Positions 25,846 to 63,954 of a DNA stretch of 64,000 nt are shown piece by piece. Numbering within the stretch: the stretch's first letter is position 1; each line of letters begins with the position of its first letter. Where the stretch lies: NCBI RefSeq assembly GCF_910592395.1, contig NC_088311.1:746501-810500 (forward strand), written 5' to 3'. The notes under the pieces are model-generated. The model was not told the DNA's origin and did not search any database. It saw nothing but the letters and a program-made list of their open reading frames with translations. The stretch is from Lineus longissimus (taxonomy: Eukaryota > Nemertea > Pilidiophora > Heteronemertea > Lineidae). The position numbers and the translations under genes were made by a program.

Positions 25846-27827
25846 ATGCAGAGAAGTCCAGAACAGCAACCAGAGCAAGGGAAGGGCTCGACTTCCACCT
25901 TTAACCGCCTGCATAACGGCGGTATGGCCAAGATTGTCTATTTCTATAAGGATGGTGACCAGAACTACACAGGTACTCGTGTCACTCTCAATGACAGGAG
26001 ATATCGGACCATGGACGCGTTATGTAATGACCTCAGTAATCGCATGAAGGATCTGAGGTTTGGTGTGCGTGCTATTTGGACACCTGGTGGTCACCACTCG
26101 GTCGATACACTCGATGGATTGCAAAATAACGGACGCTATGTGTGTTCGACGAGTAAGAATAAAGCCAAGGGTGTTGACTTCAATCACTTGACGGAACGGA
26201 AGCCGTGGCATGTTTCAAAACCTCACAGTGGAATGCGAGCTTATAGTAAGTTCTTACGAGGTGAAGGAGGGAATCAAGCAAATGGGCCGTCACATCATCC
26301 GAGGCCGGGTCGCCGAATAGCACAGCAACGGCTTAGTAATAAAGCAACCAGTGATGACTCATCCCCGTCAAGTCTCAGGTCAAATAAGACTCCGAAAAAA
26401 ATCAGTGTGTACAAAAACACAGATCATACGGAAAAACATGTGCTGTTACTGAACCGACGGACTGCTCAATCGTTTGAACAGGTATTGGATGATATGAGTG
26501 AGTTATTCAGGATGGGGGTCAGGAAACTATTCACAGTCGAAGGAAGTAGGGTGAGTGAAGAACTGTTGGTGTCGCCATTTCATGACACAGCGCCAGTTTG
26601 CAAGTTACGTCAGTAGAGGTACTGGTAACTCAAATGTCCCTTTGTCCACCACACACACTTCACTTTAGTACAACCCTCATTCTATTATACATAGCTGTCC
26701 TTGTTCACATCGTTTGGGCATTGTAAGGTGTGTATGTCAGAGGTCATCCCCTCTGATTACAAAGTGCATCAGCCTCCTCTTTCTTGAAACATCAGTCTAA
26801 CATCATAACAATAGTATAAGGTTTCGAATGGTCCAATAATTGATTTTTACTGTTCAATCAATTGGCATAACCACAATATTATCACTTGTTTCTTTATCCT
26901 GAGAATATTTTAATAATCAGGTACAGCAGGGGGTTACATGTACTGTTATAGCTGAATAATTAATGATAATCTAATGTCAGAAATGGTATAGGCGCAGTAA
27001 ACCATGGCTATTGTGTGCAGTAGTTATCGATTGATTGGAAATGGAAGCTAAGGGTGTATTCTATACATCCTTTGGACCAAAATAGCATCATGGGTCGTCT
27101 TTCTGATAGCTAATCATTTGGCTGAAGATGCAATTCATAAAAATACTGAGAAAGACCAACTTAACTCTGCCCTGGAGTTAGCTGTTTGCCTAACTGCAGT
27201 GATACACACCTACTACGCTTGTAGAGTGTCATCTAAGATGCACTCCGAGAAGAAGGGGAGCTTCATGTGTCACTTCCTTCCATTCCAGATGCAATCACTC
27301 TCTGATATATTCCACGGGCCGGACCAATACGTTGTGTGTAGTAGTGAGCGATTGCGATCGACTGACGATATAAACAATGACCTCACCACAAGGGGGCGCC
27401 ACCCTGTGCCAGACATGCGAGTATTCGCCAACCGTAACAAAGCCAGGAGAGATAATCTCAACCGAACAAGTAAGTTGATTTAGAAGAGTTGTCGGATGAT
27501 GTGACTTATCGTACTAACTTGATGTCTAGAATGTTTTGTTACCTGTTCTGTGTAAAATACTTAATTGGAGTTGGTATATAACATTGAAAGCTGGGATGTC
27601 ACTGATGATTGCACAGCCACATCATTTGGGGCGGGATGAGGAAGTGCAAAGTATTGAGACTTGGCAATGCTATGAGACAAGACTCATCTTCATCTTGAGA
27701 AGGATCCCGTCTAAACTTGGGTTGAGTGGCAAATTAAGACTTGATCAATGAAATGCGTTATTTTGCCCACTTGCTTGTTCAGCATCGCCAATGGAATGGA
27801 GCTCTGTGTCTGTGTCACCACACAGAG
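25846..27827 (+). CDS. RP1-like gene segment: tandem doublecortin domains
   Basis: Exons 25846-26550, 27289-27469 and 27783-27827. The first carries DCX1 complete (KIVYFYKDGDQNYTGTRVTL, then RFGVRAIWTPGGHHSVDTLD and a GRYVCSTSKNKA end) and most of DCX2 (KKISVYKNTDHTEKHVLLLN, RRTAQSFEQVLDDMSELFRM). Exon 2 finishes DCX2 (DIFHGPDQYVVCSSERLR). The spacing of Gly, the FYK-GD opening and the R-G-H-S motif follow human RP1 rather than doublecortin itself. The 45-base third exon is a short SP-containing linker. The frame of exon 1 stays open past its donor to 26616, so retention would give a short DCX-only form. Confidence 0.9.
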
Positions 27828-30800
27828 GTAAGTGATGACATCACAGCACCAGCCTTATTTTTCAAGAAGAAATGAACTTAAAATCTCTCATTTACCTGTG
27901 TCTTGCTTGTTGCATGGTCAAATATATATTTTGGACATGTTTTAAAGTCATATTTGCATTCTGGCTCACTTTGCCTGCAGATATATTACTTGTTTCATGA
28001 ATCTTCTCTTTCACTCTTTGTTAATCTCAACCGGGGCTCTTTCTTTAAAAGTTTTTTTCCAAATGCTCTGTTTTTCTCACATCTCACATCAATATCTTTA
28101 TCATTTGTTATGCTTAAGACAGCCTTAGAGTTGAATAAAAAGGTGTGGAATCAACAAGTATCATTGCTGCTGTAAACTATCACAAATGAATGTCAATACA
28201 TTTGGATTTCTCACAGGTTGCAAGACAACATGTCTTTGACTGGCACTTGCACTTTTTCCAGATTCGTAGTTTAAAAGTCTGTACCTGGCATGCTAATGTA
28301 AGATATGCTTGGACCACGCCCTCCTATTCTAGCTGTAAAACGTATTCCTTCTTACTTATGATGTACCTTGTAGCACTAAACAGGCAGAAAAATAAAGCCG
28401 TTCAGGAAAGCCTGGATAGCTGCCATTCATATCATTATAGGGCTGACATTATTACGATAAGTCTTTGCCAACTTCAGCTGTAAGTTACCTGCTAATAGCT
28501 TTGCCAAAATTTCATACCTAGTGCACTTTGACAGATTATATATTTTGCATGAGATTTAACCTACTTTTTTCTATTTGTTTATCCCACAATATTGTCAAAG
28601 TTACAGAATATATGGATATCCGAAATGATGCAGTAAATATTTTCAAAACTTGATTGCATATACAGCGGTTAGTACCATGGTAGCTTAACAATGCTACTCA
28701 ATCAAATTGAAACTTTCCGTCATTGAATGAATATTTCATGATTCGGGCACTCTGGTGAGTGAGTGGTGAATGCAAGCAGGAAAATTGTGGCAGGTTTTAA
28801 GTGCTAATCATGACACTTTTTAGATTCATGAATAAATGATCTGGCCATTTTAGTTTGGTTGGATGTGAGGGAGTCGTAAGGCAGAATGAGCGCTAATCCA
28901 TATTTTCTTTGCAATAAGGTACAGTGACGAGAAGACGACCACAAATTAACCCATCGCCCCCCTCCCTCATGCCCTTTACACGTCTTGATTGTTTCCTCCA
29001 CTTCTTTCAGGAGGCAAGTGGAAGATCTTCATAACAACTGGTGATGCAGAAGATGCCGGCACCACTTCACAAGTGTCCATCACCATCTACGGTGACCGTG
29101 GCAACTCTGGCCCGATCCCGCTCGGTGATGGTGATGGTGAGACGTTTCAGAGTGGACACATCGATGAGTTTGAGGTATTTCCCAGGTTTCTTATTTGACA
29201 GCATGTTTTAGAAATCCCATACTTGATTTTACCCTGTTTCTGGCAGGAGAAAATTTCTGATTTGTTTCTGCTGTGATTTTTCAATCAGTTTTGTTATACC
29301 ATGCTGTGCGCAGCTAAGGTTACATAAATGTCAGGCATGCCATCTTAACTTGATAATATGTAATCAATGATGTTATGAAACATAGATGGACAGGCTAATG
29401 AGCTGTATTAATGAGTAGTTGTCATCAGTCACTGATCTTATATCTTTCTCAAGTACTGTGTTAAAACTGTCATTGTGGTTGGAAACATGATAGGACATTT
29501 ACAAGAGAGACCTATCGCAAACGATTTCCGTTGCTAATATCAGGTCAACTGAACTTGTTGTCAACCAATCAACATGACCATGACGGATCATGAAAGAGAA
29601 GAAATTAATTTGATGGAAATTGCTTTTTAGTTCATCAAATGTGTTTAAAATTCTGCCCTCTGAATTGTTAAGGTAGAGGTGGAACGTTATTTGCCTATCG
29701 ATCTTGATGATTAATTCATCATCTCATCATCCTTATCCCTTGATTGATGTCGACAATGTCAGTATTGATTGGGGAAAGCTGTCAGCATTTGTTTACATTT
29801 GTCATCCATATTGCTATTGATTGATTTTGGTATGGATGACTGGGTGAAGAAGAGATTGAGGTGGGAGTTGTTCTAAGCAATCACGATGTTTTGTAAGTTC
29901 AGGTGTTACAACGTGTTTAAAACAAGAAGCCGCCTTGCTACTGTTGCCACGGCCTTTAAAGCAGACCTGGTTAAGATGCCGCTCGGTACATTATACAGTC
30001 TATGTTTTTCTTTTGAATTTGAAAACAGTTAAACAATTCAGGCCATTATGTTACTATTGAATATTCTCCCCAACACAAAGCAGATTGCTCTCAGCTCTTC
30101 ATGCCTCACGGCACCATTAAACTTTCAAACTTGTTGCAACTGACAGAATCTGATGTATCTGGTCGCGTAATATTCCGTAATTTGTGTGGAAAATATTGAT
30201 TCCAGAATAACCGCTATTGTTTTATTACTTCACTTTGTGTTGAGCGTCCTCAACGGATGTTCACACAGAATGGTTCCAATGTTGAGTTGACTTGAGCCAT
30301 CAGCTTCAATGTGATGGAAACCAACAAGTGCTTCTAGGATGAGGATATTTAGCTAATAAGCCTCTTCACTGAATGTCCTCGTTTGGAAAACAAATGCTGG
30401 TGGAAACCCAGCATAAATCTAGAGGGTATGTCAACTCTGAGTTCAAACAAATCTGGTAATACTGGAGGTGTGCTTGGTTTATTCGTTTGCCCAATACACC
30501 CAGTTTTATCATGAAGAGAATAATACCAAGTGTCGGATGGTCTTTTGCATTGGGTGTGCTTTTGTCTTTCTGGGACAAGATAGATTAAATCAATAGATAT
30601 TCACTTCAGTATGACCTGCGTCATATACCATGAACAAATTTGTATTTATCTGTTTCATGAGAATGCCAATGTTTTCTCTGACAATGAGAACATCGCCCAT
30701 GTTTAGAGAGATGCCTCTAAGGCAACTATTGAATCGTAATCCAAACAGTCAAAATGTTCACAAGTTTGTCATTTTTCTGGCTCTGTTTTGTTTCCTTGTC

Positions 30801-33800
30801 AGTCTATTTACTTTGTGGGTGTCCTTCCTTCATGAAGTGACCCGTCATCCCCAGGAGACCCATGTCTCGGGGAGGCTTTCTGATATTCATGTGGTGATCT
30901 ATTGATATAAACTTGTATAGCTTGGAACCTTGCTGAAGGCTTTCATAATTTATGTTTTAGAAAGGAAAAGTGGGCAAAATGTCTACTGGTACTAAGGCAA
31001 GAGGTTTTTATACCTTGTTTTGTGAACCGTTTACGAAAATGTCACATTTTCACAGACAACTGGAGTTTAAAGTCATAAGGGAAGCAATGGAGAAAGTTAT
31101 TCAAACAATCTTCTTGCTCATGATACGTGATGGTATGATTCGGGTCAGAAACAATAACTTCATGTTAGTTGGAGGAAGCTGGTGAGAGCTACAACAAACC
31201 AACCACAAACCTCCAAGATCAAAGACTGCATACTTCATTTGTTTGTCATGCCTATCTTAGGTTTGTTGTGGCTCTGAGCAGCCAATTCCTAATAATTTGG
31301 TGTCAACAACATTACACACGGATGGGAATGTGAATTTGAACAAGTGAAATTGAACTCGTGAGTTTGAACAAGTGCATGTTGACAAAATCTTTTCAAATCA
31401 CTTCACCAACCTTATAAGACTCGATCCAGTTGGTGTGTGTTCCTCTGTCTTCATGAAAACATCTTTCACATAGTTTGCTGATACATAATCCCAAATTGAA
31501 GGAGGTCCTAAAAAGACACTCATTTTTGCACACACTTCAGCCCAATTCAAATCATGGACTGATTGACCAGTACCCTAAACCAGTCAGATCTGGTTCTGGT
31601 CATTGTCACACTGTAAGGGTCCCAAAGTCATGTGACCCAAGCCAGCTAGTTTATTGAGCTTTATTACCATTTGTATTGTTAATCCCTGTTAATCCCAATC
31701 AAGTAATCATTCTAATCCTGATTTTTGATTGGCTTACCTTATAACTGAATAAAAGTCATGAATGAGTGACGATGTCCCATTGCATCATATTGATGATGAT
31801 GTTGACAATGTTGATGATGATGATATAATGATGACCATCAAAATAACTTTGAGGACAATGATGAGAAATGATGATGATGATGATTTTCACAGTGCTGCTG
31901 CTGATGATGATGACGAGGAATGGTGATGATGATAATGATGATGAAGAGCTGGGAAAAGGGTTTTAAATATCCTTCAACATTTTTCACTCTGATTTCTTTA
32001 TCTAGGTGTCTACGGGTAACATTGGTACCATCTACAAGATACGCGTTGCTCACGACAACTCGGAGGGATCTCCTGCATGGTTCTGCGATGAGGTAGGTGC
32101 ATTTTATACCCAAGCTTTGCAAACAGCCAAACTATAATTGGTGTTTTAGTCAATTTGGTTGCCAGGGAGATATGAAGAGGTTGTTTCTGCGTTATATCTC
32201 AAAGCCACACCAAAATACTGACACATCAATGTTTTATTCATTGTGGTTTGCATAAGCATACTTGGGACGTTGAAGTCTCATATTCGTGGATAACTTCATC
32301 TAAATTTGGTAGTTTGAAGTGTGTTCATTCAGTCCACACCCATTTCAGTTCAGTAGCACATGTGGAAACTAAAGTGCTTTGGCTCAATAAAAAACATGAA
32401 TAGAGAGTCACATTGGTTGTTACTTCCAGCAGTCCAAGCTTGAATTCTATTTCCAAATGATCATTCCATTTGAAATGAAATTTAGAGGTCAAATACGTGT
32501 CTTGTAAATGGTCTTCCAACTTGCATCAGCCACTAGATGCAATTACCACTTATACTGCAGTCAATGTCTCAGCAAACTTTACACCGCAGTGAGATGGGAA
32601 ATCAATATCAGCCTGATTTGACATGCCCACTCAATGGATTTATTGGTGTGGCTGCCCGATCATTAGGTTCAGTAAGATGGCATCTTGTCAACTGCTGGCA
32701 ATGATTGCTTTATTATCTTATGGATTTCCATTCTCACTCGGAGATCGCTCAGCGACATCTGCCATGTTGCTCAGCCTCAAGTTTCGTTAGTTGTGCTAAT
32801 GCTGGCATATTTGCTGACTCAGCAGCTGCGCCCACTTCAATAAGCATAAGACATGAACCTGAAGTGATCCTATTATACCTCACTAAACCAATCAATCAAC
32901 AACAAAGACTCACGTCTGCAACATTGGATTTCTCTTACCTGGTACATTTAAGCAAATTATCATCTACATCTCGTATCTGAAGACTGGAGATATAAATGCA
33001 GAAGGTTCATTGATTATTACTGATCCAGTCATTAAGTGTCTATTGAGAGAGGAAATCCGTGAGTTATTGACAAGAAGAGGATGGCATGATTATCCGGTAA
33101 AACATCCGATGCATGTCTTATCACATTGATAACAGGAAACTTTATACGCCGGAAGACATAAAACGTGTTCATGAATAAAAACTTGTTTGAAGTGCTGTGG
33201 TTACTTCTCGTCAGCGAGAGGGTCCTGCTTAAGTCTTGTCATGACTCGTGTCATAACTGTTGTTTGTAGGTGCGAATGGTTGATATCAACTCTGGTGAAG
33301 AACTCAAGTTCAACGTCAGTCGTTGGCTCGCCCGTGACCAGGACGATGGTGAAATCTGCAAGGAGTATGCAGCCATACGCAATGGCAAGGAGGTCCTCCC
33401 AAGTAAGTCAAAACTTAGAGGAGATTGCGTACTTTGAAGTTTGAACAGAAGAGTGTGATGTATATTGGAGCTTTAACTTGTTGTGTACAAAGACCTATCT
33501 GTAGCTTGAAACCTCCTTACTAGCGAGAGAGAATCTCAACTTATGGCGGAAGGATGTGGTGAGTGACATACTTCAGTAGTTGGTGGCAGTTGTGTCATTT
33601 CTGATCCAAGGATACACACTAGGGGTCAACTTGACAATCATTAAGAGCCTTTGAATGACAGAACTGTCTCTCTTGCAGCTCGAAAATACCAAGCGAAGGT
33701 GATCACTGGTGATGTTTACAATGCCGGCACTGATGCTAATGTTTACGTCACCATCTACGGTGAGAGAGGAGACACTGGGGTCCGCCAGCTCCTTAAGTCA

Positions 33801-36800
33801 CTCAACTCAACCAAACCCTTCATGAAGGGGCAGGTAAGATGGTCACCCTCAATAGTGTGTGCAGTTTGTTCATGACCTGAAGCTGAAAGGCTGCTGACAC
33901 GCACAAGCTTACCTTCATTACAGGTATAAAACAAGTGTGTGTTATCAAATTGCATGCAATATCTAACTTATCATAAAGAATTCATGGTGTCCTGTCTGTT
34001 GGGAATGCATCATCATATTTCAATAAATAACTTCACCAATCAATCAACAACATGATTGTGGGAACAACTTCAGAAGATGCCAACATTTTAGAGGTAAAAA
34101 TGAATCATCAGTCTAAACTTTTACAATAGTTTTGATTCTTCTTATTTCCAGTCAGACATGTTTGAAGTGGAGGCTGTTGATCTTGGTGGATTGAAGCGGG
34201 TCATCATTGGCCATGATGGTGATGGGCAAGGTAATCACGATTATGTGACTTTCTGCTAAAATCAGTTGGTGCTTCGTATCGCTACACTTAGCCATGTTCA
34301 AACTCCAATCTCTTGGAGTTTTACAGGTCAGAGCTGCAGGTCAGAGCTTGGTGCTCAGGACTGACTTCACATAGTAACATCTTTGCCTGCTACAATTAGC
34401 AAAACTATTCTGATCATGAACCACCAGATTTATGTATCATATCCAGTTGCATGTTATCGTCTGCTTATATTCAAGAGTGAAGATGTCATAATGTCACCTG
34501 TGTCCAATGACTAGCATGATGGTCTTTGTTATCCAGGCAATGGTTGGTTCCTCGACAAAATCATAATAAAAGAATCATCTGATGCAGTGGAAGAGGCTGT
34601 GTTCCCATGCAGCCGGTGGCTGGATGAAGATGAGGATGATGGGAAGATAGTCCGCGAGTTGAAGATCCAGGAGGAGTACTTCATGGATAAGTTAGCCGCT
34701 GAGATGGTGAGTACTGCCAACACACACATGCAAGATGTCTTTGCCGCCTAGCTACTGTTGGAGAGCAAAGGTTCCCAAGTCTATTTATTGAAATCCTCAC
34801 ATCTGAATCAAAGACCATCTCAGTACAGTAACTCAGTGAGTCTGCTTGTGAATAACTGTCCTGTGTCTTGTTACAGTGGGAGTACGAGAGGTGGAAGTTT
34901 GCGCCGAAGTCACAGATCATGCTCTTCTCCAAGGTCACCCAGAAGGCGGTCAGGATCTTACGTAATGGCCGCGTTGATGGTCTTGGCGAGCTCGATGATA
35001 AAGAGAATGGTGAGTGTATAGTTAATAATGAAGATGGCTAGGGTACGCGACATATCTTGGGTGGTGACTGCTGATTGGGTAACTGAAATGGTTGAGCCAG
35101 ATCTTCTGACTTGTTGCCAAAGAAAATGACACTGTAACACCTCATTCAAGAAAGTTTGTAGGCAACTGGTTAGTTGCTGGGCAGAATTAAATGTAGTTAT
35201 CTGCCCTCGTCTTTTGTTAAACTATGTGTGTATAAAGATTAGATGAGATGTTTGTTGATAACCTGCCTGTCTCTGTTTCAGCATTCTTCAATGTGATCCC
35301 CAAGAAGGACATGATCATCATGCTCGCAAGTACGAAGAGACCCAAGCATCATCTCACCATTGATAAAGCAAATGTGGATGGGAATGTAGGTTGAACCAAG
35401 GAGATGTATGATCTACCAAAGATTAGGCCCATCATGATCTGAACGAAACCACTGTCCGAACGAGTGAAACAAATATTTGGACTTGAATTTTGTAACTGAT
35501 GATGTTGGTTCATTTTGAGCAGAAAAAACAAAACCAGTGAATAATAATGTCGACTCCCTTCCTTCCAGGGTCGTCCCAGCATCTACTCTGAGTTCCGTGT
35601 CTTCATCCAACCAGATCGCAGTGCAATGTTTGAATCGGTGAAGTTCCCGGTGCAGCATATCAACATCCAGAAAGATGGCTACCCGGGTGACGCAAGAGGG
35701 AGTGTGGCTAATCCGTCCAAACAGTTCTTCGTATACTGCAGAGTAAGTAGAGGGCATGTAGGTTGTCATTTCCTGATCGAGTAGATTGGCCTGTTCCTTA
35801 AGGCTCCACTGTTGGAGGGTTGGTCCACTCCTGGATAGGTTGTTGTGCTCATGTGGTGTTCCACTCATCTACGGCACATACTATCACCAAACTGATTGAT
35901 AGATTCCTTGATATTTCAGGGCCAGTTCCGCGATGACAGCATCATTATGCTGTGTACCTCCATGACACAGACGATCGCCATCGACCACAACAACACACTC
36001 TACGGCACTGGTAAACGTAACCGCATGGCTCAGTTCAAGGTCAAGAAGATCAGCTCCGGCAATGTGCGCATGTTCGAGAGTGCTGTATTCCCCGACCAGT
36101 TCATTCAGATGCGTGATAATAAGTGTGACTGTATGGGATCTGGGGACAGCTACTGTCACTTTAAGGTTCATCGCTACAAGGAGTTTGGCTATGTGACACT
36201 CGAGTCAGTGGCGTGCAAGGGGCTCTTTATTGGCCTGACACCAGATGGACAGATCAGGCCAACTGTCGATACAAATGAGAAGAACATATGGCTTTTCCCC
36301 GAGGTTATCCAGTGTAAGTAATTACATGTGTTCTTAACCCTTTCATCCTGAGTGGCCAGATCCTGGCAGCTGAAGAAGATAAACACTTCAGTTATCATGA
36401 CGTCTGCTGCTGTTCCAAGATGCTACTGTTGGTCTTCATTGAAATTTGGAGTGATGTTTTGAGATTTAGTTGTATAGTTTGGTGGCAGATTTAGGTGGTT
36501 TATATGACTTGTAAGTCTCATTCATCATTTCAGTTGGTAAGCCAAAGAGAGTTCCAACTCCACCTCCACCATCGCCCGATCTTGAGCCACTGCACTACTC
36601 ACCAACTCCACCACCTAGTGGTAAACCAAAGAAGAGAAGAACACCTGTTCGTACACCATCACCAAGGCGGGAGAAGTCACCAGACAAAGTCACACTTGAG
36701 TTCAAGGAAAGGACAAAGACGCCTGAATCTAAACCTTCCAGTGCAAAATCAGTCTTTGAAGGTTAGTGTGGGAAATATTTTCTTGCCCAGAAATGTGGAG

Positions 36801-54800: not shown

Positions 54801-57800
54801 TGTTGACTATGGTGAAACACATCCCAATCACAAGTCGACTGCAACCAACACCTCAAGACCTTGTTTTGAGTCTGAGGATGAGATAGAGGAAGCTGTAGGA
54901 TGGACAGACAACGAGAATACAATGGTAGAGAGGTTACTACCACAAGTTTCAATTCAAGAACCGACGTTTGCAACAGAAGAAACTGCAACAAGTCCAATTA
55001 ACCAATCACTTCTTGAGTTCGAGGAATTGGAGAGAAAGATAGCACAGGAGACACAAAGTGCTGAATGTGATGGTCGGACATCTATCAATAAAGGAGCAGC
55101 CCAGATGAGAGTAAACCGAACTGACACAGGTACTGGAGCGTCTCCACCAAATGAGGCTTTCAACAAATCACCTCTGCCTCAACTCTTGAAGACGATGTGG
55201 GGGACTGTGAATCAAGCACTTGCTGTCAATTCACCTGTGGAATATCCAGTACCTGATGTGAACTACCAGACATTCTTCGTGACAGAGCTTGATCCAAGAT
55301 ATTATGATGAACCTGTTCGTACGACATCAACTCTCCAGCAGGATGCTACCAAATCAACTGATATTCATGGCAATCATTGGCCTCGGTTTGCCCTAAAGGC
55401 AACTGCTGTCAAAGCAGGAAGTCCAAATCAGGCTATGTCATCTTTTGATATGAGCACATCACCAAGTCCACCAAGTCCAATAACTGCATTGGAGTCTAGT
55501 GATGTGAAAACATCACCCAGAATACCTCCAAGTCCTGTGGTGGAATCTAATGATGTGGGCACATCTCCTGGAATACCTCCAAGTCCAAGACCTGTAGTGG
55601 AATCTAATGATGTGGGCACATCTCCCGGAATACCTCCAAGTCCAAGACCTGTAGTGGAATCTAATGATGTGGGCACATCTCCTGGAATGCCTCCAAGTCC
55701 AAGAACTGTAGTGGAGTCTTGTGATGTGGGCACATCACCCGGAATGCCTCCAAGTCCAAGACCTGTAGTGGAGTCTTGTGATGTGGGCACATCACCCGGA
55801 ATACCTCCAAGTCAAAGACCTGTAGTGGAGTCTTGTGATGTGGGCACATCACCCGGAATACCTCCAAGTCAAAGACCTGTAGTGGAGTCTTGTGATGTGG
55901 GCACATCACCAGGAATACCTCCAAGTCCAAGTCCTGTGGTGGAGTCTCAAGATGTGGGCACATCTCCTGGAATACCTCCAAGTCCAAGACCTGAAGTGGA
56001 GCCTAATGATGTGGGAACGTCACCCGGAATACCTCCAAGTCCAAGTCCTGTGGTTGAGTCTCAAGATGTGGGCACGTCACCAGGAATGCCTGCAAGTCCA
56101 AGTCCTGTGGTGGAGTCTAATGATGTGGGCACATCACCAGGAATTCCTGCAAGTCCAAGACCTGTAGTGGAATCTAATGATGTGGGAACGTCACCCGGAA
56201 TACCTCCAAGTCCAAGTCCTGTGGTGGAGTCTCAAGATGTGGGCACGTCACCAGGAATGCCTGCAAGTCCAAGTCCTGTGGTGGAGCTTAATGATGTGGG
56301 AACGTCACCCGGAATACCTCCAAGTCCAAGTCCTGTGGTTGAGTCTCAAGATGTGGGCACATCACCAGGAATTCCTGCAAGTCTAAGGCCTGTAGTGGAG
56401 TCTAATGATGTGGGCACATCTCCAGGAATTCCTCTAAGTTCAAAACCTCTTAGTGTAGGAAGAGGCCAAGTAGTAGAGTGTGTTGATGTTGGCACATCAC
56501 CTGTTATATGTCTTAGTCCAAGACCTGCTAGCTCAGGCAGTCTGCTGCTTTCGTGTGATGCTGGCACATCCCCTCTAAAGTCCCTTGATATGGCGACATC
56601 ACCTACTCCTCCCAATGCTACGAAGGTCAATTCTCAAACTCACCAGACTACAATGAGCCTTGGAAAGAACTCTCTAGACCTGGCAACATCCCCCACGCCT
56701 TTGGGCTCACCAATACTAAAGAACTCCATGGACATGGCCACGTCCCCCACACCTCCAAACACACCAGTGGTCAAGATTTCGTTAGACATGGCCACTTCCC
56801 CAACACCTCCAAACTCACCTATGGTCAAGAAGTCTATGGACATGGCCACGTCCCCCACACCTCCAAACTCGCCAATGGTCAAGAACATGGACATGGCCAC
56901 ATCACCAGTGATGAAGAACTCAGTTGACATGGCCACCTCTCCTACTCCACTGAGCACTTCAAAACCTGCCTCTCCAAGATATAGAAGTCATTCAGGGCGA
57001 AGTGACCATGATCAAGTCCTACCAATGGAGGACAAAGATGTGACCAGGATCAGTCCTGTCCTCGATGCACCAAGTCCAGTCAAGTCTGCTGTAACTGTGA
57101 AGCAACCAGGTGATCACCTTTTAAACTGTCTTCATCATCTTCTATATTGCATAAAACGGAACTGCTTCTGTGTGAGCTTGGTACCAGGGAGAGCATGCAG
57201 GTTGAGAAAGGCCCCTTGATGATCAAGTTGCTTCATGCCATGAGAACAGACCTGACATCAGGTTTAGATAGCCCTGGATTACTCTCCATTGCTGTTGATA
57301 TTTTGACCTGAACCTCAGCCAAGACTGCTGTTTGAAATTGGCTTGTGATGTGTGTTGTCATTAAAACCTACTTGATAGCTCTAATCAGCGACGACTTCTA
57401 TAAAAGAGGCTACTGAGCTGTAAGCAAATTTCGCTTTCTTTATGCCTGGTGACTCCATCAGACTCATGTTACACACCATTTCCATTGACAGGTGACTATA
57501 TTCCCTTATCACACACAACCACGGCAACTGGGGCGAGTCCTCCGTCGTCTATGACTCCGTGGCAACGATCAGGTGACTACTATTGCCTCCAATTTCATTC
57601 ATAACTCTTCTTCTAGCTTGCCATCTAAGACATCATAATCGACCTTCTTAAGTTGTCATGAAGATAGAAAGATTGATGGCTCGAAACAGAAGATCCATTG
57701 ACTGGCCTTATAATGAAGTCAGTGGACATTTTATTGACCTGGCTTTAAGCAAATCGTCCATTATTCTTTAAACACTCTTGAAAGGGTGAAATGCTTGTAT

Positions 57801-60800
57801 CAGTATTCTACAAATGAAAAATTAAGATCAAAATTTCCTTTTTCTAGTTGGAACAATAACTGAGAGTTCGAGAGGTAAATATTGATCACAATGTTTTTAT
57901 CCTTTGATATTTTCTTCTGATTTATTGCTTGAGCGAGTCTAGCCTATAGTCGACAAGGTTGTCTGATTGTCTCATGATGGGTTGTCCCTTGAATCATTTC
58001 CTGCTCATACATGAGCCATCGTTCTTCATTGGTCTTTGTCCGGCAAACAGTGTAGCAGCAAAGCTTCGCGGCACTGACCATCACTAGGGTATCGCATTGT
58101 TGTGAGTAATAATGTCAGTAACTAACAGTCTCTGTCCTTATTGAACAGCATTCCTTACCAGGCTTGAGGACTTCCTTGATGAAGGTACTTTATATTTGTT
58201 CTTTTATCTTAAGTTCTTCACGACTGTTCAGACATTCCTGACCAGATGAGCCTTTCTTGAAGTCTTTTCGTAATCAGAGCTATGGTTTTCATGTCAGTGA
58301 TCTTGATATGGCATGGCTTTGACCGGCAAATTTTCAGAATTTTGAACTTGGGTGGTCGTGTTACTGGGGTTCCACTGTAGTTTGAATGGGCTAATCCAGG
58401 AAGGGGCTGCACATTGAATATAAGAGGGAATCTCTTGCCCTTATTCATACTTCTATCTACGAGTTGTATTATTCTCAACTGGTTTCTGTGTAGATGACAG
58501 TATCATCCAGGACGATGACGGCAATGATGACCAATCATTGACGCTGTCCGATATGTCTGAAGTCGACAGCTTCTTCAACAATAACAATGACTCATTAGCT
58601 AACACAGGTAAAACCTTTTCGTGTTACTTTTCTCTCTTTCTCAAATTTCCAAGATAATTTTGTAAGTTTTCTGTAAAGATTGCAAGTAAAAACATGAGTT
58701 TTTCTTCCCGATATGACGAACCTTCAACAAACTCACAAGGGGTTTCATTGAAGAAGCAGATTCTCCATATGTATTTCTTACTCTGAGTGATATCGGTGAT
58801 CTTTCTTCTAGCTATCTTTGGTGATAGTGAGAGAAAGGACTGGCGTGATTCTGCCGAGCGCTCCATTGAAGATGAGATTCAGAATGACTTTGGATCATCT
58901 GAAGGTACATGTAGACTAATGGTTAAAACATCATGGAATCATTGAAATTAAGACCTGCCATGTTTGATGTGTGGTCTTGGTTCAAGGCTTTTGGGACTGA
59001 AGTACAATATGCCGTGGACAGATAAACAGTCTTTTCTGTATGCCACAAGACTTGTAAGAAAACAAGGCTCTCAAGTTCCATAACAGTTATACCTCAAGAT
59101 TCAGTCAGTGTGAGAAAGAGTCTGCTCCATATTTGACAGAACTGGACACCACCTGGTGATTTCTGGTGCCTTGGCCTTGCTTGTATTATTCTCAACTGGT
59201 TTCTGTGTAGATGACAGTATCATCCAGGCGTTTAGCGTTTAGATTCATCGTTCTCGAGTATGGTCACCCTGGGCTTGAAATATGAGTAGTGCAAGGTGAA
59301 TACTTTAACCTTCTTGTTCCTTCTTCAACTCTAGTTCCTGTGAGTACCCCAGGGAGTACCCCAGGGAGTGCTCTGCTACCTGTTGCACTCATGGACCGGA
59401 AGCAAAAACTCATCAAGTGGCTGCGAGCGTACGTAGGAGAGGAAGAGGAGTAGAGTTGTACATACATTGTAAAATAGGTTTCTCTCAGCACATGTTTATA
59501 AAGCAACACATTTTACCCTGCATGCGATCATTGGAATATTCTGCCAAGCGGCTGCACAATCACTGCGATGATGGCTTCCGCATAAAATCCCGTAAATTTT
59601 CTTCAAATCTAGCATGGACTCAAACTGATGAGCCATCTACAGGTGGCCAGGAAACATACAAAGGTGAATAACGTTATATAACTCTCTACTGTTCTACGAT
59701 AAACTGGATTCGCCATCTTTGGTGTAAAAGTGTTTTTGGATATTTCTCATGCATATTTTCTAACTTTGTTAAGCGCTTAATCATTTTCATCTTTCTAGGG
59801 CTTGCGTGCTTTTGTGATTTCCAAACGTCATGCTGCACAAGGCTCCATCATGTACTTAGATGCTTCGGGCACTTTATGGCTGAATGGACGCGAAAATAAC
59901 TGTACTGCAAAAGTGTTTTTCTACATTGCAGATTTTTATATTCGAGGACATTATCCTACTTCTACTCCAGTTTTCAGGGCTACACTTTAATCTTTATGTT
60001 ATGCACATTGTTATATTCATCAATATGTTTCCATCTAATATCAAGTTTTGTTTATCTTACATGTGTGAACTAACATTTCTTGACGTTTTCTAGCTTTTTT
60101 CCATGTTTCATTGTACATGTACATGTATGTCTTACACGTGATGAATGAATACCATGAACAAACTCTCATATATCTGAATCCTGAATCACACCTGTATGAA
60201 CAACTTGATCAGCGCAGTTCTTTGTGCTGTTTCAGAAACTTAGAATTCAACAAGAGATCACAGAACAGTTGAGTCTTGGAAACCACTACCAGTTTGAAAC
60301 TGTAAAATATTACAAAATCTGTCAAGTGCAAGGTTCTTGTCTCAGGCCTCAAGATGACTTCATCTAAATGGCAGTAAAAGGAACCCAAATCTTGGAGGAA
60401 ATGGTAAACCCTGTTGCTGTTTCTCTTTACAGAAGAACGCCCGGTTCCTGTAACGCCCGATGCAGATCAGCCAGAGAGTAAGTCAACCCTTGATATCTTC
60501 TGTGATGGGTGGATATGACAGGATGAACTGCTTCTGAATGCAACCAGCAACCCATAGGGGTCAGGTGTGCTGTACAAAGTATTCAACTCAAGTGTGTGGC
60601 ACATCGTTTCTTCTGAGACAGTTAGAAACCGTCCAGTATCAGTGACTACTCGACTGTTGATTGTATTGTTACTCTTGTCCTAAAAGGTGCTTGCCTTGTA
60701 GGCCGATCTTCCTAGTAACATCTCACTAACTTTATTTCCAGCGGGTGAATGGAAAGTCTGGGTGACCACTGGTAAGGAACCAGATGTTGGGGTCGGTGAC

Positions 60801-63800
60801 GTCGTTCTCTATGTTTATGGTGAGAAGGACCATGTTGGTCCGATCGTTCTCGGAACTGGCAAGGAGGAGCTCTTCAAAGCTGGAAACATCGATGAATTCA
60901 AGGTAAGGAGCTCATTCAATAAGTGATTTGGGCTGGTATGATAACTATATCAGCTGGAATGAACTCAGGGCCACATTGTCTGTAAGGCATGAACAAAGCT
61001 CTATTTGATCCACTTATCTACTGGAGTACTGGTGTAGTACAGCACATCTTATCACAAGCGACTTGGCACGTCTTGTGATGTTATGTGCAATTCAGGTTTG
61101 TCTTCTCTTTGCAGATCAATCTTGGCGAAGACCTTGGCAAGCTCTACAAGATCCGTATTGGACATGATGATACAGACCCATCCGGCTGGTACTTAGAAAA
61201 GGTAAGCTCATTGGCATCGCTAGTGTTTGTATTGTGTCATGGTAGGCTTCATGTTTGAAGTGGCCACTGAATCCGGGCCAAGGTACGCTAACATTTCTAC
61301 ATCAAGAATGGAGTCTTTATCAAAGGAGTATCTTTGAGTATCCTCTGGTCTGGCGCTGTGAATTGTGATACTCACAACATTAAGATAAATCAGGTTGTCT
61401 GTGTGCTGATGGAAGTGTCATGAGTTTAAACCTTAACATTCTTCTTCTCTTTAGGTCAAAATGCGCGACCTGAACACCAAAGAGTTGCTCACATTCCAAG
61501 TGAACCGCTGGATGTCGAGGCATGAAGATGATCTGGACATCTGGAGGGAGCTACCTGTCACAAGACCAGGAGAAGTGCCTCTACCATGTAAGCTAGCTTC
61601 TGTTCAGGTTATTGACAAATCAGTGTAGCAACCTTTTGATTTGAGGGGGTAAACTAGTTGTTTCTTCATTGGCAGGTTTTGTTCATTCTTGTTTCCCTTC
61701 ATTCTAGGCGTGGTGTACACACTCGAGGTGTACACTGGTAATGAGTTGGCTGCCGACACCGAGGCCAGCGTCTTCGTCAACCTGTACGGTGAGCGAGGGG
61801 ACTGTGGCAAGAGAGTCCTATTCAAATCCAAGGATAACACCACCAAGTTCAGGGCAGGACAGTGTGATGTGTTCGAGGTGGAGGCGGTCCACCTTGGGGC
61901 CATTGAGAAGATCACGATCGGTCATGATGGAGAAGGACCCGGTATGTCTGAGATGAATCATCTCCTAAGTTAGGGTTTTAAACTCAGCCTGGCTCCATCA
62001 TTAGTTTTCCCTGTTGTTTTTCCCTTCTCTGCATTTACCCCTTTAGACATTCATGCGTGTTGAGAATAATCAGATCAAAAATGTGTTAAATTCCATGCTC
62101 TGGCATAGCCCTGGTTCAGAAAACACACTTTCTGCCCATCTCATTGTGCATGTGTGTCATTGTAGGTGCTGGTTGGTTCCTTGAGAAGATCGTCGTCACA
62201 GAATCTTCGGACGATCAGGACACGGAGACCAAGTACTACTTCCCCTGTCATCGATGGTTGGATGAAGGGCAGGATGACGGCCTCATAGTGCGAGACATCC
62301 AGGTTGTAACTGGTAGGTTGTCCTGAGTGAGAGTTATTTCATGTGTTGTCTCAAAGATTCCATCATGTTGTCACGGTGGTATCAATGATTGAAGACTTTC
62401 AAGGCTTGTTCTGGGTGCATTATCATCTGAAACGTTGATGTATGGTTTGATAAATGTGTCGTCAAATTTGACCTCTTTTGCCCAACAAAAGTGACATGCT
62501 AAAACATACCAGCAGCTATCTGAAGACCGACTTCATTCTTTCACTGCTCTGTCTCTTTATAGTTGGTGAATACAGCGTTATTGTGAAAACAAATGAAAGC
62601 AGCGCTGCACCAAATGGAGGGACGGCGCGCTTGTCAGTCTACGGCACCAAGGGCAACACCAGTGATGATATCATCCTGTCGTCTGGTGAAAGTACAGTAT
62701 TCACACCTGGTAACCTTGACACATTTGAGGCGACCATTGGTGACCTTGGTGAGTTCTACAAGGTCAGGATCTGCAAGGATGATAACGACGCTTGGGAGTC
62801 GTGGCAGATTGATGAGGTAAGGCAGACGTCTTTTAGCTACCAACCTTTCATCAGAATTTCACTATGCTTGGGTTGCTGATGGACAGAAGAACAAAGTGCC
62901 CTTTTGCCATCATCTACTGTTTAGAGTTAGATACTCATCTAAACAACAGTTTGACTGATGTGTGTTTCCAGTAACTTGCTTGCAGAGAGATTATCATGTT
63001 AGGCAGGAGCTCAAAATGGTCAAAGTGTCACTGTCAACCAACGCTTGTCTTTTATATTTGACCAGATCGAGCTTGAAGAGAAAGCTACCCTTGAGAAGGT
63101 GACGTTCAAAGCCCCGGAGCCGTTTACCCTGACCACTGGTCCGTTTGGTAGTCCCAACACCACCAAGGAGGTCGCTGCCATCCGGGATGACCAACCTTGC
63201 CTTCCAGGTGGGTACATGAGTTGGGTTGCAGGGTTGAGGCTGTGATCTATAGATCCACGCCTAGTACCCATCAGGATCGAGGGTTGCCCCCTTCTGGTGA
63301 TGATATTGATGATGGCGTAGACAATGTCTGGTGTTGTTAGGTAATGATGATTGATGAGCAAAGCCACACCAGTCAAAAAGGTTTGCCGGCTTGTTGACAA
63401 AGGAGTGGTGTGTTTGCCTGATAACAACCTTTCATGAATCAAAACTTTCCTCATCTTCATTGTAGTCTTCCAGTATCAAGTCTACGTACACACTACCGGA
63501 GAGGGTGATGCTAAACCTCTCCACCTGACCATGTTTGGAGGGAAGGGTGACACAGGTGCCCGACGTCTGCTTGATGGCCAAGCTGAAGAAGGTGAAGCAG
63601 ACGCCAAGTGTGATGTTTATACTTTGGAGGCAGTCTACCTGGATGCATTGGAGAGTCTGTGTGTTGGGAAGGAGCCGGGTAAACCTCTCTTCCTCAAGGA
63701 GATCTGTGTGAGGGAATCCAAAGATGCAAAGCAAGAGTATGTCTTTGAATATAACAGGTGAGAGCAAGTTGCAGGTGTCATATACATTTACTTTCACAGG

Positions 63801-63954
63801 ATATAAACTTTCATCGAACCTAAGCATGCTTAGGTGAGCTATTCTATTACTAAACTGAATTGCTTGTGTTTCAGTGGCCTCGGTGAAGGACAAGATGACT
63901 TCTCAGAGACGACCATTACGCTCAAGGAAATCCGCCCACTTGGTGCTGCCAAAT
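25846..63954 (+). CDS. Giant RP1/RP1L1-like DCX-PLAT-trefoil protein, 3' partial
   Basis: Seen: 41 coding exons, all GT-AG and phase-consistent, total 20,239 nt in the window (at least 6,746 residues), open at the right edge. Exon spans are given in the segment entries below. The start at 25846 is the first ATG after an in-frame TAA at 25822-25824. Order of parts by residue: two DCX domains (about 29-115 and 184-290), PLAT 1-2 (311-573), double beta-trefoil-like block (574-841), proline-rich basic linker (842-917), PLAT 3-4 (918-1167), disordered repeat region (1168-6236), PLAT 5-8 (6237 to edge). Known: tandem DCX domains bind microtubules in RP1, RP1L1 and doublecortin; PLAT arrays typify LOXHD1, a stereociliary protein. 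Inference: an axonemal or photoreceptor-cilium scaffold. The alternative, two adjacent genes, is disfavoured by the unbroken phase and the lack of a stop or new start between DCX and PLAT parts. No gene symbol is assigned because orthology to RP1 versus RP1L1 cannot be settled here. Confidence 0.85.
29011..33402 (+). CDS. RP1-like gene segment: PLAT domain 1
   Basis: Exons 29011-29174, 32006-32092 and 33270-33402. The start GGKWKIFITTGDAEDAGTTS, then SITIYGDRGNSGPIPLG, a YKIRVAHDNS strand and an FNVSRWLARDQDDGEI end follow the PLAT/LH2 beta-sandwich. The PLAT fold in lipoxygenases and LOXHD1 is thought to bind lipid or protein at membranes. It is separated from DCX by a 1.2 kb intron and split by a 2.8 kb intron (29175-32005) that holds a GAT-rich simple repeat. 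Confidence 0.9.
31786..31945 (+). repeat. Imperfect GAT/TGA microsatellite in a PLAT1 intron
   Basis: Many GATGAT and TGATGA blocks, interrupted by short unique sequence, end about 60 bases before the acceptor of exon 32006. The open frame on the opposite strand here (His-rich) is only a by-product of this repeat. Confidence 0.85.
33679..34706 (+). CDS. RP1-like gene segment: PLAT domain 2
   Basis: Exons 33679-33833, 34152-34230 and 34537-34706. Diagnostic stretches are DANVYVTIYGERGDTGVRQL, KRVIIGHDGDGQGNGWFLDK and the end FPCSRWLDEDEDDGKIVREL. It has the longer second-type PLAT ending that recurs in PLAT 4 and 6, so PLAT 1 and 2 form an A-B pair. The exon ends in a charged helix-like tail before the trefoil block. 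Confidence 0.9.
34877..36313 (+). CDS. RP1-like gene segment: double beta-trefoil-like block
   Basis: Exons 34877-35009, 35282-35385, 35569-35742 and 35920-36313, about 268 residues. Two similar halves are seen: QIMLFSKVTQKAVRILRNGR... with MFESVKFPVQHINIQKDG, and SIIMLCTSMTQTIAIDHNNT... with MFESAVFPDQFIQMRDNK and VTLESVACKGLFIGLTPDG. The FES-x-x-FP-x-x-x-I motif and short alternating strands recall IL-1/FGF-type or fascin-type beta-trefoils. This fold call rests on motif reading only. Neither vertebrate RP1 nor LOXHD1, as I know them, has this block between PLATs. Confidence 0.6.
36534..36761 (+). CDS. RP1-like gene segment: proline-rich basic linker exon
   Basis: A single 228-base exon, phase 1 at both ends. 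It encodes a linker with PTPPPPSPDLEP, GKPKKRRTPVRTPSPRREKS and several TP/SP sites. The charge and proline pattern resemble microtubule-binding or kinase-target linkers; this is inference from composition. Confidence 0.85.
37013..37559 (+). CDS. RP1-like gene segment: PLAT domain 3
   Basis: Exons 37013-37170 and 37334-37559. It starts GDWKIWIHSAESASNGDIAM and ends with LKFKVNRWLSKQHDNLETVR then ELPAVRPRKEVLP. The ending closely parallels PLAT 1 and PLAT 5, the A-type half of the PLAT pair. Confidence 0.9.
37681..38457 (+). CDS. RP1-like gene segment: PLAT domain 4
   Basis: Exons 37681-37832, 38019-38176 and 38402-38457. Stretches DTDANVYINLYGERGDTGKR and KCVLSHDGENPGEGWYCEEI are typical, ending FQCGRWLDSGVDDKKTEIAL. 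B-type PLAT, pairing with PLAT 3. It is the last folded domain before the disordered region. Confidence 0.9.
38720..40525 (+). CDS. RP1-like gene segment: first disordered exons (24, 645 and 39 nt)
   Basis: Exons 38720-38743, 39374-40018 and 40487-40525, each phase 1 in and out. The 24-base exon encodes only EQTPSLED with one split codon. The 645-base exon is acidic, Ser/Pro-rich and without recognisable domain (SPVPLTQVALHSPRTPAM; EIEDVSATEADDESSHHDEN). The 39-base exon is YEDEAAYSDDFD. Microexons this small are often regulated in neurons, but no expression evidence exists here. Confidence 0.75.
40630..40813. mobile_element. 184-bp MITE with terminal inverted repeats and TA target duplication
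   Basis: The left end CAGTGGAACCCC (from 40630) pairs with the right end GGGGTTCCACAG (to 40813) with one mismatch. The element is flanked by TA on both sides (40628-40629 and 40814-40815). It has no coding capacity. The TIR style and TA duplication fit the Tc1/mariner/pogo group. It sits in the intron before the 2.9 kb exon. A related right end occurs at 58351-58377. Confidence 0.75.
41328..44213 (+). CDS. RP1-like gene segment: 2,886-nt disordered exon with Ser/Glu arrays
   Basis: One exon, phase 1 in (acceptor gcggacag) and phase 1 out (donor AAAGCTG|gtaatg, moderately weak), 962 codons. If the donor is not used, the frame runs on to TAA at 44282-44284. Contents: a Ser-rich start with KAATSPINRC, ten 26-residue repeats, a Glu/Asp-rich middle, then an 11-residue acidic array. 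Human RP1L1 also has a long Glu-rich repeat region, so composition agrees with the DCX-based assignment although the repeat units differ. Confidence 0.85.
41822..42601 (+). repeat. Coding tandem array: 10 copies of a 78-bp (26-residue) unit
   Basis: Ten consecutive units with consensus TERAFSSRSHPASHSGTPV then AVDDSEE; the first and last units are the most divergent. Variation is mainly K/R at position 8, HP/GP at 10-11 and E/G at 25. High base identity indicates recent amplification or homogenisation and likely copy-number polymorphism. Confidence 0.95.
43408..44100 (+). repeat. Coding acidic array: 11-residue units in a higher-order repeat
   Basis: The basic unit is EDKPAEDEATS (33 bp). 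A variant, EDKPGEDEPTKDKAT, recurs and marks a larger period of one variant plus two or three standard units, repeated about three times. The last part switches to EDKPAEDEARA. Strongly acidic and disordered, close in style to Glu-rich repeats of RP1L1-like proteins. Confidence 0.9.
45119..45214 (+). CDS. RP1-like gene segment: 96-nt exon between the two giant exons
   Basis: Acceptor gtgtcacag, donor CGAG|gtgaga, phase 1 at both ends. It encodes GVNSRWEVLHPGGSPWPVTT then SPSLGYSYSRNR. The TTSPS core is another copy of the motif that runs through the giant exon, supporting membership of the same gene. Confidence 0.8.
46040..57109 (+). CDS. RP1-like gene segment: 11,070-nt giant disordered exon
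   Basis: One exon, phase 1 in (acceptor ccatgcag) and phase 1 out (donor CCAG|gtgatc), 3,690 codons without a stop. If the donor is skipped, the frame ends at TGA 57217-57219. The protein is Ser/Thr/Pro-rich and largely disordered. It holds a basic 20-residue array (46612-46917), a 17-residue array (47746-48408), dispersed degenerate copies of a G/A-T-x-SP module, a 19-residue array (55537-56448) and an 18-residue array (56581-56962). Islands that look less disordered are YAVISVPNSQDLESIASVLA with PDWRKVLSLLVRLIG (53076-53253) and YQTFFVTELDPRYYDEPV (55264-55317). An acidic patch lies at 54736-54890. Exons of this size in a disordered ciliary protein recall the huge last exon of vertebrate RP1. 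Confidence 0.88.
46612..46917 (+). repeat. Coding array: about 5 copies of a basic 60-bp (20-residue) unit
   Basis: Units begin SSAKQKVQNPRPTRESQRQA, YSAKLKPQNPLSKRNWTKKG, CSAKPISQNPRTKRDNEIKH and continue with more divergent copies. The core is Y/C-SAK-x-x-x-QNPRxKR. Net charge is strongly positive, unlike the acidic array in the previous giant exon. Confidence 0.85.
47746..48408 (+). repeat. Coding tandem array: 13 copies of a 51-bp (17-residue) unit
   Basis: Consensus YRTTGTGASPVPSLAPE, alternating with a second version ending PPRTPA. The two versions are mixed along the array, so amplification involved dimers or gene conversion. The last three units decay. A degenerate unit (QNIGSGLSPSPPQTPK) precedes the array. 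Confidence 0.95.
55537..56448 (+). repeat. Coding tandem array: 16 copies of a 57-bp (19-residue) unit
   Basis: Consensus VVESNDVGTSPGIPPSPRP, with N/C/Q before DVGTSP, I/M in the GI/GM position and P/A before SP. The DVGTSP core is invariant in all 16. Degenerate units flank it on both sides (ESSDVKTSPRIPPSP before; ECVDVGTSPVICLSPRP after). Confidence 0.95.
56581..56962 (+). repeat. Coding array: about 6 copies of an 18-residue DMATSPTP unit
   Basis: Units such as SMDMATSPTPPNSPMVKK and SLDLATSPTPLGSPILKN, with one shortened copy (NMDMATSPVMK). The D-[MLV]-ATSP core lines up with DVGTSP of the preceding array, so the two arrays look like separate expansions of one module. Confidence 0.9.
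57492..58184 (+). CDS. RP1-like gene segment: three small phase-1 exons (81, 27 and 36 nt)
   Basis: Exons 57492-57572, 57848-57874 and 58149-58184, all phase 1 in and out with proper acceptors and donors. Products are GDYIPLSHTTTATGASPPSS then MTPWQRS; VGTITESSR; and AFLTRLEDFLDE. The first two carry the TGASP and VGTIT forms of the giant-exon module, which supports their being real exons despite their small size. Confidence 0.75.
58351..58377. mobile_element. Fragment of a MITE: right end only
   Basis: GGTGGTCGTGTTAC followed by TGGGGTTCCACTG and then TA matches the right arm of the element at 40630-40813. The 14 bases starting GGTGGTC are shared exactly with 40771-40784. I find no left end nearby, so this is a truncated or decayed copy. 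Confidence 0.55.
58464..58511 (+). repeat. 48-bp direct repeat, copy 1, with exon acceptor
   Basis: Identical over 48 bases to 59181-59228, from TTGTATTATTCTC to CATCCAGG. This copy spans the pyrimidine tract, the AG acceptor (58492-58493) and the first 18 bases of the 114-nt coding exon. Confidence 0.95.
58494..58904 (+). CDS. RP1-like gene segment: acidic exons (114 and 93 nt)
   Basis: Exons 58494-58607 and 58812-58904, phase 1 symmetric. The first encodes DDSIIQDDDGNDDQSLTLSD then MSEVDSFFNNNNDSLANT; the second AIFGDSERKDWRDSAERSIE then DEIQNDFGSSE. The acceptor and first 18 coding bases of the 114-nt exon are duplicated downstream at 59181-59228. Confidence 0.8.
59181..59228 (+). repeat. 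48-bp direct repeat, copy 2, dead exon start
   Basis: Perfect copy of 58464-58511, displaced by 717 bases. It would act as an acceptor, but the frame behind it reads DDSIIQAFSV and then a stop (TAG at 59240-59242), and no donor precedes the stop, so it cannot be a productive internal exon. Confidence 0.95.
59335..59453 (+). CDS. Possible alternative terminal exon of the RP1-like gene
   Basis: A good acceptor (caactctag) in phase 1 opens a frame VPVSTPGSTPGSALLPVALM then DRKQKLIKWLRAYVGEEEE, ending at TAG 59451-59453. The available donors (GC|gtacgt, TAC|gtagga) are in phase 2 or 0 and would break the frame of the next exon. It therefore fits best as an alternative last exon giving a protein without PLAT 5-8, or as an unused cryptic exon. 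The STPGSTPG part is a 12-base duplication. Confidence 0.4.
59613..60477 (+). CDS. RP1-like gene segment: last two small disordered exons (51 and 45 nt)
   Basis: Exons 59613-59663 and 60433-60477, both phase 1 symmetric. The first encodes AWTQTDEPSTGGQETYK, containing a TQT core as in dynein light chain LC8 ligands. The second encodes EERPVPVTPDADQPE and leads into PLAT 5. The first is inferred from splice sites and phase only and could be optional. Confidence 0.6.
60742..61587 (+). CDS. RP1-like gene segment: PLAT domain 5
   Basis: Exons 60742-60902, 61115-61201 and 61455-61587. Starts GEWKVWVTTGKEPDVGVGDV, then YKIRIGHDDTDPSGWYLEK and TFQVNRWMSRHEDDLDIWRE. A-type PLAT. Its three-exon layout and splice phases copy those of PLAT 1. 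Confidence 0.9.
61708..62312 (+). CDS. RP1-like gene segment: PLAT domain 6
   Basis: Exons 61708-61941 and 62166-62312. Stretches DTEASVFVNLYGERGDCGKR, KITIGHDGEGPGAGWFLEK and FPCHRWLDEGQDDGLIVRDI match PLAT 2 closely, including the W-F-L-E/D-K turn. The intron found inside PLAT 2 after the first sheet is absent here. Confidence 0.9.
62563..63207 (+). CDS. RP1-like gene segment: PLAT domain 7
   Basis: Exons 62563-62816 and 63066-63207. It starts VGEYSVIVKTNESSAAPNGG and includes ARLSVYGTKGNTSDDIILSS and YKVRICKDDNDAWESWQIDE. The C-terminal strand region is more divergent than in PLAT 1-6 (no clear RWL motif). Confidence 0.85.
63466..63954 (+). CDS. RP1-like gene segment: PLAT domain 8, open at window edge
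   Basis: Exons 63466-63757 and 63875-63954. It starts VFQYQVYVHTTGEGDAKPLH, then LTMFGGKGDTGARRLLDG and ESLCVGKEPGKPLFLKEICV. The last exon ends with a gtaagt donor at 63955, phase 1, so the coding sequence continues beyond 64000. Confidence 0.85.

Follow-up and report, generated by a model that had tools for sequence, protein, structure and literature searches.

A phase-consistent exon chain joining doublecortin domains, PLAT domain pairs and beta-trefoils in Lineus longissimus, a candidate relative of RP1/RP1L1

Exons for doublecortin (DCX) domains, PLAT domains and a double beta-trefoil lie on one strand in Lineus longissimus, which raises two questions: do they form a single gene, and to which known family would that gene belong? 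We analysed a window of 64,000 nucleotides (contig C4, positions 746501-810500; the genome comprises 391 Mb in 30 contigs) and read the next 30 kb of the contig. A single in-phase exon chain runs on the plus strand from an ATG at 25846 to 63954, where it is open in frame, and it reaches a stop at 75186 on the window scale, 11.2 kb past the window end. The full model has 61 exons, 7,080 residues and 18 PLATs. Its domain order is two DCX, two PLATs, two beta-trefoils of the FGF clan, two PLATs, a disordered-looking region, and further PLATs. The features of the window are as follows.

19280-21130, minus strand: CLAMP-domain neighbour, head-to-head, exons joined by eye (PF14769, 33.9 bits)
25846-26550, plus strand: first coding exon, DCX1 and most of DCX2, phase 0 out (PF03607; donor AGG/GTGAGT)
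27289-27469, plus strand: second coding exon, end of DCX2, phase 1 out (the PDB doublecortin alignment runs through)
27783-27827, plus strand: linker exon of 45 nt, symmetric (1-1), with a possible internal start (ATG 27791)
29011-33402, plus strand: PLAT1 (type A), three exons of 164, 87 and 133 nt (PF01477, 77.5 bits)
33679-34706, plus strand: PLAT2 (type B), three exons (PF01477, 73.9 bits)
34877-35742, plus strand: beta-trefoil 1, three exons (PF00167, 22.5 bits singly; repeat units)
35920-36313, plus strand: beta-trefoil 2, one exon (PF00167, 27.6 bits; repeat units)
36534-36761, plus strand: Pro/Lys-rich linker exon, symmetric
37013-37559, plus strand: PLAT3 (type A) (PF01477, 54.7 bits)
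37681-38457, plus strand: PLAT4 (type B) (PF01477, 66.5 bits)
38720-38743, 39374-40018 and 40487-40525, plus strand: three symmetric (1-1) linker exons
41328-44284, plus strand: stop-ending exon, Glu/Asp-rich coded tandem repeats, phase 1 in
45119-45214 and 45772-45822, plus strand: two small symmetric linker exons, the second with a poor acceptor
46082-57109, plus strand: symmetric exon of 11,028 nt, Ser/Pro/Thr-rich, the longest open frame of the window
57492-57572, 57848-57874, 58149-58184, 58494-58607, 58812-58904 and 60433-60477, plus strand: six small symmetric linkers, several with weak splice scores
60742-61587, plus strand: PLAT5 (type A), three exons of 161, 87 and 133 nt (PF01477, 51.9 bits)
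61708-62312, plus strand: PLAT6 (type B) (PF01477, 68.9 bits)
62563-63207, plus strand: PLAT7 (type A) (PF01477, 42.9 bits)
63466-63954, plus strand: PLAT8 (type B) (PF01477, 21.5 bits, below the cut-off of 23)

A preliminary description of this DNA had assigned the DCX pair, the PLATs and a double beta-trefoil to one exon chain, consistent in phase and on a single strand, and the Pfam matches and the open frame confirm that arrangement. The Pfam search of the spliced model that it had proposed as a check recovered both the DCX pair and the PLATs. Its eight-PLAT array is present inside the window, but the array runs on to 18, and its estimate of at least 6,746 residues in the window falls to 5,770 when the stop-ending exon 41328-44284 is omitted, with the chain still in phase. 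Splice sites were scored with our own generic consensus and exons were chosen to keep the chain in phase, so the symmetry of the linker exons (all 14 are in phase 1 at both ends) is not independent evidence. Some splice scores are weak: donor 29174 has 1.0, and acceptors 38720, 63875, 58494, 57848 and 45772 have 0.1, 0.1, 0.2, -0.3 and -2.3, respectively.

The decisive junctions for a single gene are 27469 to 29011 and 40525 to 46082. At the first, PLAT1 requires an upstream coding exon because its first exon is entered in phase 1 and has no in-frame ATG; between the DCX exons and PLAT1, the only start exon with a phase-1 donor scoring above 4 is 27783-27827 (ATG 27791). At the second, exon 45119-45214 has good splice scores, phase 1 and no in-frame ATG, and thus needs transcripts that begin upstream and splice past the stop-ending exon. 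Together, both observations favour run-through transcripts.

Alternatively, two or three adjacent genes could mimic a chain, simply because their phase-1 exons neighbour one another: a DCX gene ending at 27483 or 44284, and a PLAT gene starting at ATG 27791 or 46024. Exon 41328-44284 does terminate in a stop, the exon that holds ATG 27791 has a strong donor, the ATG ATG at 46024 opens an 11-kb frame, and three AATAAA (28134, 28391 and 28831) lie between DCX and PLAT1, where one or two are expected from base composition. However, several genes fit poorly with the phase-1 entry of PLAT1, for which there is one other strong-donor start exon only, with exon 45119-45214, which reads best as an internal exon, and with the alternation of two PLAT types (A and B, described below) through every block. 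Moreover, there is no AATAAA in 44285-46100 and no ATTAAA before 45092, and even if the chain were divided at 44284, DCX, four PLATs and two trefoils would share a gene. We regard separate genes as unlikely. DCX and at least the first PLATs probably form one gene, and it is somewhat likely that one transcript covers all 18 PLATs; transcription could also start from a second promoter, at 27791 or 46024.

For the stop-ending exon, which comprises 985 codons including the stop as the last one, internal use needs a donor within the repeats (43772, score 4.0) or the weak 44213 (1.7). It is followed by AT-rich sequence in mid-gene, and it is probably an alternative last exon. Joined to the upstream chain, it would give a predicted isoform of 2,388 residues. 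Joined straight to the DCX exons, the predicted form of 1,280 residues would have the canonical RP1 outline: DCX plus a disordered tail, as in vertebrates. Of RP1 itself, a passage in PMC6599023 states that its last exon, exon 4, carries most mutations.

Exon 46082-57109 is open throughout and codes for 3,676 residues with [AGM]TSP and TGASP repeats; 35 [AGM]TSP motifs occur in it, where shuffled sequences average 0.7. In-frame coding tandem repeats were seen at 41816-42592 (78 nt), 43363-44097 (33), 47728-48389 (51) and 55471-56448 (57), and we would expect such repeats to vary in length between individuals. The Rfam search gave no match at gathering scores.

Each PLAT was scanned singly against PF01477 (cut-off 23 bits): seven of the first eight pass, and 17 of all 18, with PLAT8 (21.5) just below. 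PLAT9 to PLAT18, outside the window, score 57 to 134 bits with a profile built from the eight window PLATs. The domains alternate between type A (odd) and type B (even), and this alternation continues across the trefoil block and the disordered block through all 18. Odd and even PLATs split at 100/100 in a tree of the first eight. In the tree of all 18, which also included 13 PLATs of the LOXHD1-like gene discussed below and two lipoxygenase PLATs, the nine odd ones form one clade (97/90) and the nine even ones another (84/95, below the strict threshold and present in 83% of bootstrap trees). PLAT1, PLAT5 and PLAT17 have the same three-exon layout (164/87/133, 161/87/133 and 164/93/136 nt). 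The simplest history would be that one two-domain unit was duplicated repeatedly. The first eight PLATs are only 16-52% identical to one another, a wide divergence that suggests an old array. PLAT2 matches coral 11R-lipoxygenase (E 4.9e-11) and polycystin-1 (E 1.3e-6); in the viral contigs searched with PLAT2, there was no relative among six pattern matches.

The genome contains a separate long PLAT array on contig C8 (20,199,311-20,229,423, minus strand), which we take to be LOXHD1-like from the general make-up of LOXHD1. We compared 13 of its 19 pieces –the six dropped were shorter than 85 residues– and 0/13 fell inside the two clades of the window gene. The reading of the window array as a piece of a LOXHD1 gene is not supported, its PLATs forming two clades of their own. 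The even-type clade branches at an unresolved node, next to LOXHD1 and lipoxygenase PLATs, and for this reason the window PLATs and the LOXHD1 PLATs may have a distant common source. The preliminary description had also suggested an ancestral ciliary scaffold that was split or trimmed in vertebrates, or else a lineage-specific fusion. A division of such a scaffold into RP1 and LOXHD1 finds no support, because the genome has its own LOXHD1-like gene on another contig, and the PLAT clades are separate; the evidence tends to speak against it.

Regarding the beta-trefoils, the FGF model PF00167 matches the pair with 45.8 bits (E 7.6e-12; cut-off 24), and singly trefoil 1 (22.5) stays just below the cut-off and trefoil 2 (27.6) exceeds it. 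Six units of about 42 residues have a mutual similarity of 373 versus a shuffled maximum of 303, and 0/500 shuffles reach it. The score of the pair, over the curated cut-off, and the three-fold repeat assign the trefoils to the FGF/IL1 clan as far as sequence can tell. Seven solved chains were matched (E 0.006 to 0.023), all of them designed symmetric trefoils, and AlphaFold run without relatives gave a mean pLDDT of 36.6 for trefoil 2 alone and 37.0 for trefoil 2 with the three trefoil-1 exons. An exon-by-exon genome search with the FGF model, at its own threshold, matched three exons, which lie on C9 and C6; the window gave no match. FGF growth factors are secreted ligands, whereas the window trefoils sit within a DCX-bearing chain. 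DCDC1, which carries DCX with a lectin-type trefoil, resembles the window gene in having both in a single protein. Kinship with DCDC1 is not supported: the model PF24478 (DCX2_DCDC1) scores 14.9, below its cut-off of 27.8, and the matches listed for the trefoils include FGF and no ricin-type model.

The family assignment starts from the DCX domains, a tandem N-terminal pair matched by PF03607 in two stretches (115.2 bits, E 1.4e-33). The human RP1 and RP1L1 sequences in our tree and alignments are provisional versions, and what rests on them is a lead. DCX1 groups with these provisional RP1/RP1L1 (84/87) and is 44% identical to RP1. For DCX2, grouping with RP1 lacks support (42/0), and the rows closest to it by path are of doublecortin type; overall, DCX identity is 28.7% to the provisional RP1 versus 33.2% to human DCX. 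A short DCX2 loop is common to the window gene, RP1 and RP1L1 only, among seven rows with the latter two provisional. The short DCX1 loop does not single out RP1 because genes on C20 and C12 have one too. The border between exons 1 and 2 lies at the residue aligned with Arg205 of the provisional RP1, and exon 2 exits in phase 1; in RP1, presumably, the exon 2/3 border is at Arg205 (c.615/616) and the following exon ends at c.787, in phase 1.

A search with a provisional motif for the vertebrate 'RP1 domain', run over positions 1-76000 in all three plus frames, did not recover it. Its best scores were 22.0 and 20.0, at an intron position and out of frame, versus shuffled maxima of 8.0-20.0 (three frames were scanned, and the control was 20 shuffles of one frame). 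The RP1 domain may be vertebrate-specific.

Five DCX loci (8 matches) were found in the genome, the window gene included. The others are a DCX/DCLK gene that groups with human DCX (96/95), a DCX-kinase gene whose kinase start was judged by eye, a locus provisionally labelled DCDC2-like, and a DCX-EMAP-like locus with an EML propeller match of 58.1 bits, below the cut-off of 88.2. A follow-up scan of the DCX loci took a single frame per stretch for three stretches, two of which gave nothing. At L031 (1189-3183), one open frame shows DCX, a charged stretch and an apparent kinase start, and looks DCLK-like. Since the remaining four DCX loci resemble other families, the window gene is the RP1 candidate by elimination.

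The neighbourhood bears on the same question. Among solved structures, the CLAMP-domain neighbour (21130-19280, minus strand) is closer to FAP114 (7n6g, E 8.6e-7) than to CFAP119 (E 0.025); a second CLAMP gene is on contig C2. We take C8orf74 to be the counterpart of FAP114, lying head-to-head with RP1L1 in human. The XK-related exon matches listed for the genome are all on C4 (12/12), in five places. The gene table for human 8p23.1 in PMC8027303 gives PRSS55, RP1L1, C8orf74, SOX7, PINX1 and XKR6 as consecutive genes. The neighbourhood is comparable to that of RP1L1, with a C8orf74-type gene adjoining and XK-related genes on the same contig. From the grouping of DCX1, the FAP114-like neighbour, the XK-related genes and the elimination of the other DCX loci, the window gene appears to be the RP1/RP1L1 relative of this animal.

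Other genes were also noted. The window holds, at 7157-12058 on the minus strand, open frames and candidate exons, three of which match DUF7042, DUF7043 and DUF7044 –only DUF7043 above the cut-off– and this looks like an ordinary gene with no assigned function. Among the best 30 open frames, we noted by eye a 361-residue frame resembling part of a retrotransposon polymerase (L010, 5957-7039, minus strand) and flanking genes that look like an SLC1-type transporter (L011, 1340-2026, minus strand) and RAD23 (L012, 4324-7026, plus strand).

At the functional level, the explanation that we favour, with moderate confidence, is a relative of RP1/RP1L1 that would act as a ciliary tether between microtubules and membrane. 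The DCX pair would bind microtubules, holding the axoneme. PLATs elsewhere bind membranes or proteins, and the nine two-domain units (A plus B) might here hold membrane lipids or membrane proteins, with the double beta-trefoil placed after the first unit and the disordered exons presumably setting the tether distance. Phase-1 splicing could join the DCX exons either to the PLAT array or to exon 41328-44284; entry in phase 1, shared by the linker exons and most PLAT modules, permits either joining. A ciliary site and membrane binding of the PLATs seem most likely. Our confidence in a tether related to RP1 is lowered by the placement of the even-type PLATs and by the in-repeat donor 43772. Concerning RP1L1, a section of PMC7600334 describes a microtubule-binding component of the axoneme that may tether outer-segment discs, with partners unidentified, and a statement in PMC12206149 reports that it binds RP1.

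Another role would be to cross-link the cytoskeleton away from cilia, for instance by bridging microtubules and actin through trefoils that bind actin as in fascin. The beta-trefoils of fascin do bind actin. However, the trefoils here match FGF and IL1 models with no fascin model listed, and the neighbour gene and the RP1 kinship point to cilia, so we consider this role improbable.

The gene might also have arisen when PLAT exons were fused to a DCX gene in this lineage only, with no bearing on vertebrate RP1, a reading that does not exclude the tether mechanism. The nesting of the even-type PLATs among LOXHD1 and lipoxygenase PLATs speaks for it; the divergence of the PLATs speaks for an old array instead. 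Mouse and human RP1 annotation appears to contain very long transcripts in which the giant exon 4 is left out, which also counts against a lineage-specific origin; if they encode PLATs, the architecture is shared and already visible in databases. In the open full-text literature (PLAT/LH2 spellings and most subscription journals lay outside this scope), no paper paired doublecortin with PLAT domain, or RP1 isoform and photoreceptor with PLAT, which also speaks for a fusion. Likewise, the portions of PMC7600334 and PMC12206149 on the make-up of RP1L1 describe two doublecortin domains with an RP1 domain or repeats and leave PLAT unmentioned. On balance, we think such a fusion rather doubtful.

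A bolder history, which we think less likely than not, is that the original RP1 was a giant tether between microtubules and membrane, combining DCX, PLAT dimers and beta-trefoils in a single molecule. The canonical vertebrate RP1 and RP1L1 would then correspond to the short splice form, in which DCX is joined to a giant last exon, with the membrane end lost, moved to partner proteins or hidden in little-studied long transcripts. RP1, the retinitis pigmentosa gene, and RP1L1 are retinal disease genes. A relative with domains of a membrane-binding type opens the tether idea to testing and suggests a way in which RP1 proteins may link ciliary microtubules to membranes. The intervals downstream of vertebrate RP1 and RP1L1 are places where overlooked exons could be sought.

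Compared with known systems, lipoxygenases and polycystin-1 share the PLAT domain family with the window gene, but the scanned modelled pieces of the latter are without an enzyme or channel domain. LOXHD1 also has a long PLAT array, but the LOXHD1-like gene of this genome differs in that no DCX match is listed on its contig. In the sections on its architecture, RP1L1 is given as two doublecortin domains and 28 repeats of 16 residues (PMC12206149), an RP1 domain is named after the DCX pair (PMC7600334), and the human protein has 2,400 residues (PMC7600334), against 7,080 in our long model. The window gene has 18 PLATs and two trefoils in addition and differs in the RP1 domain motif, not found here. 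It resembles RP1 and RP1L1 in its two N-terminal DCX domains, in giant disordered exons and coded repeats, in its FAP114/C8orf74-type neighbour, and perhaps also in a start exon that ends inside DCX2 followed by one that exits in phase 1.
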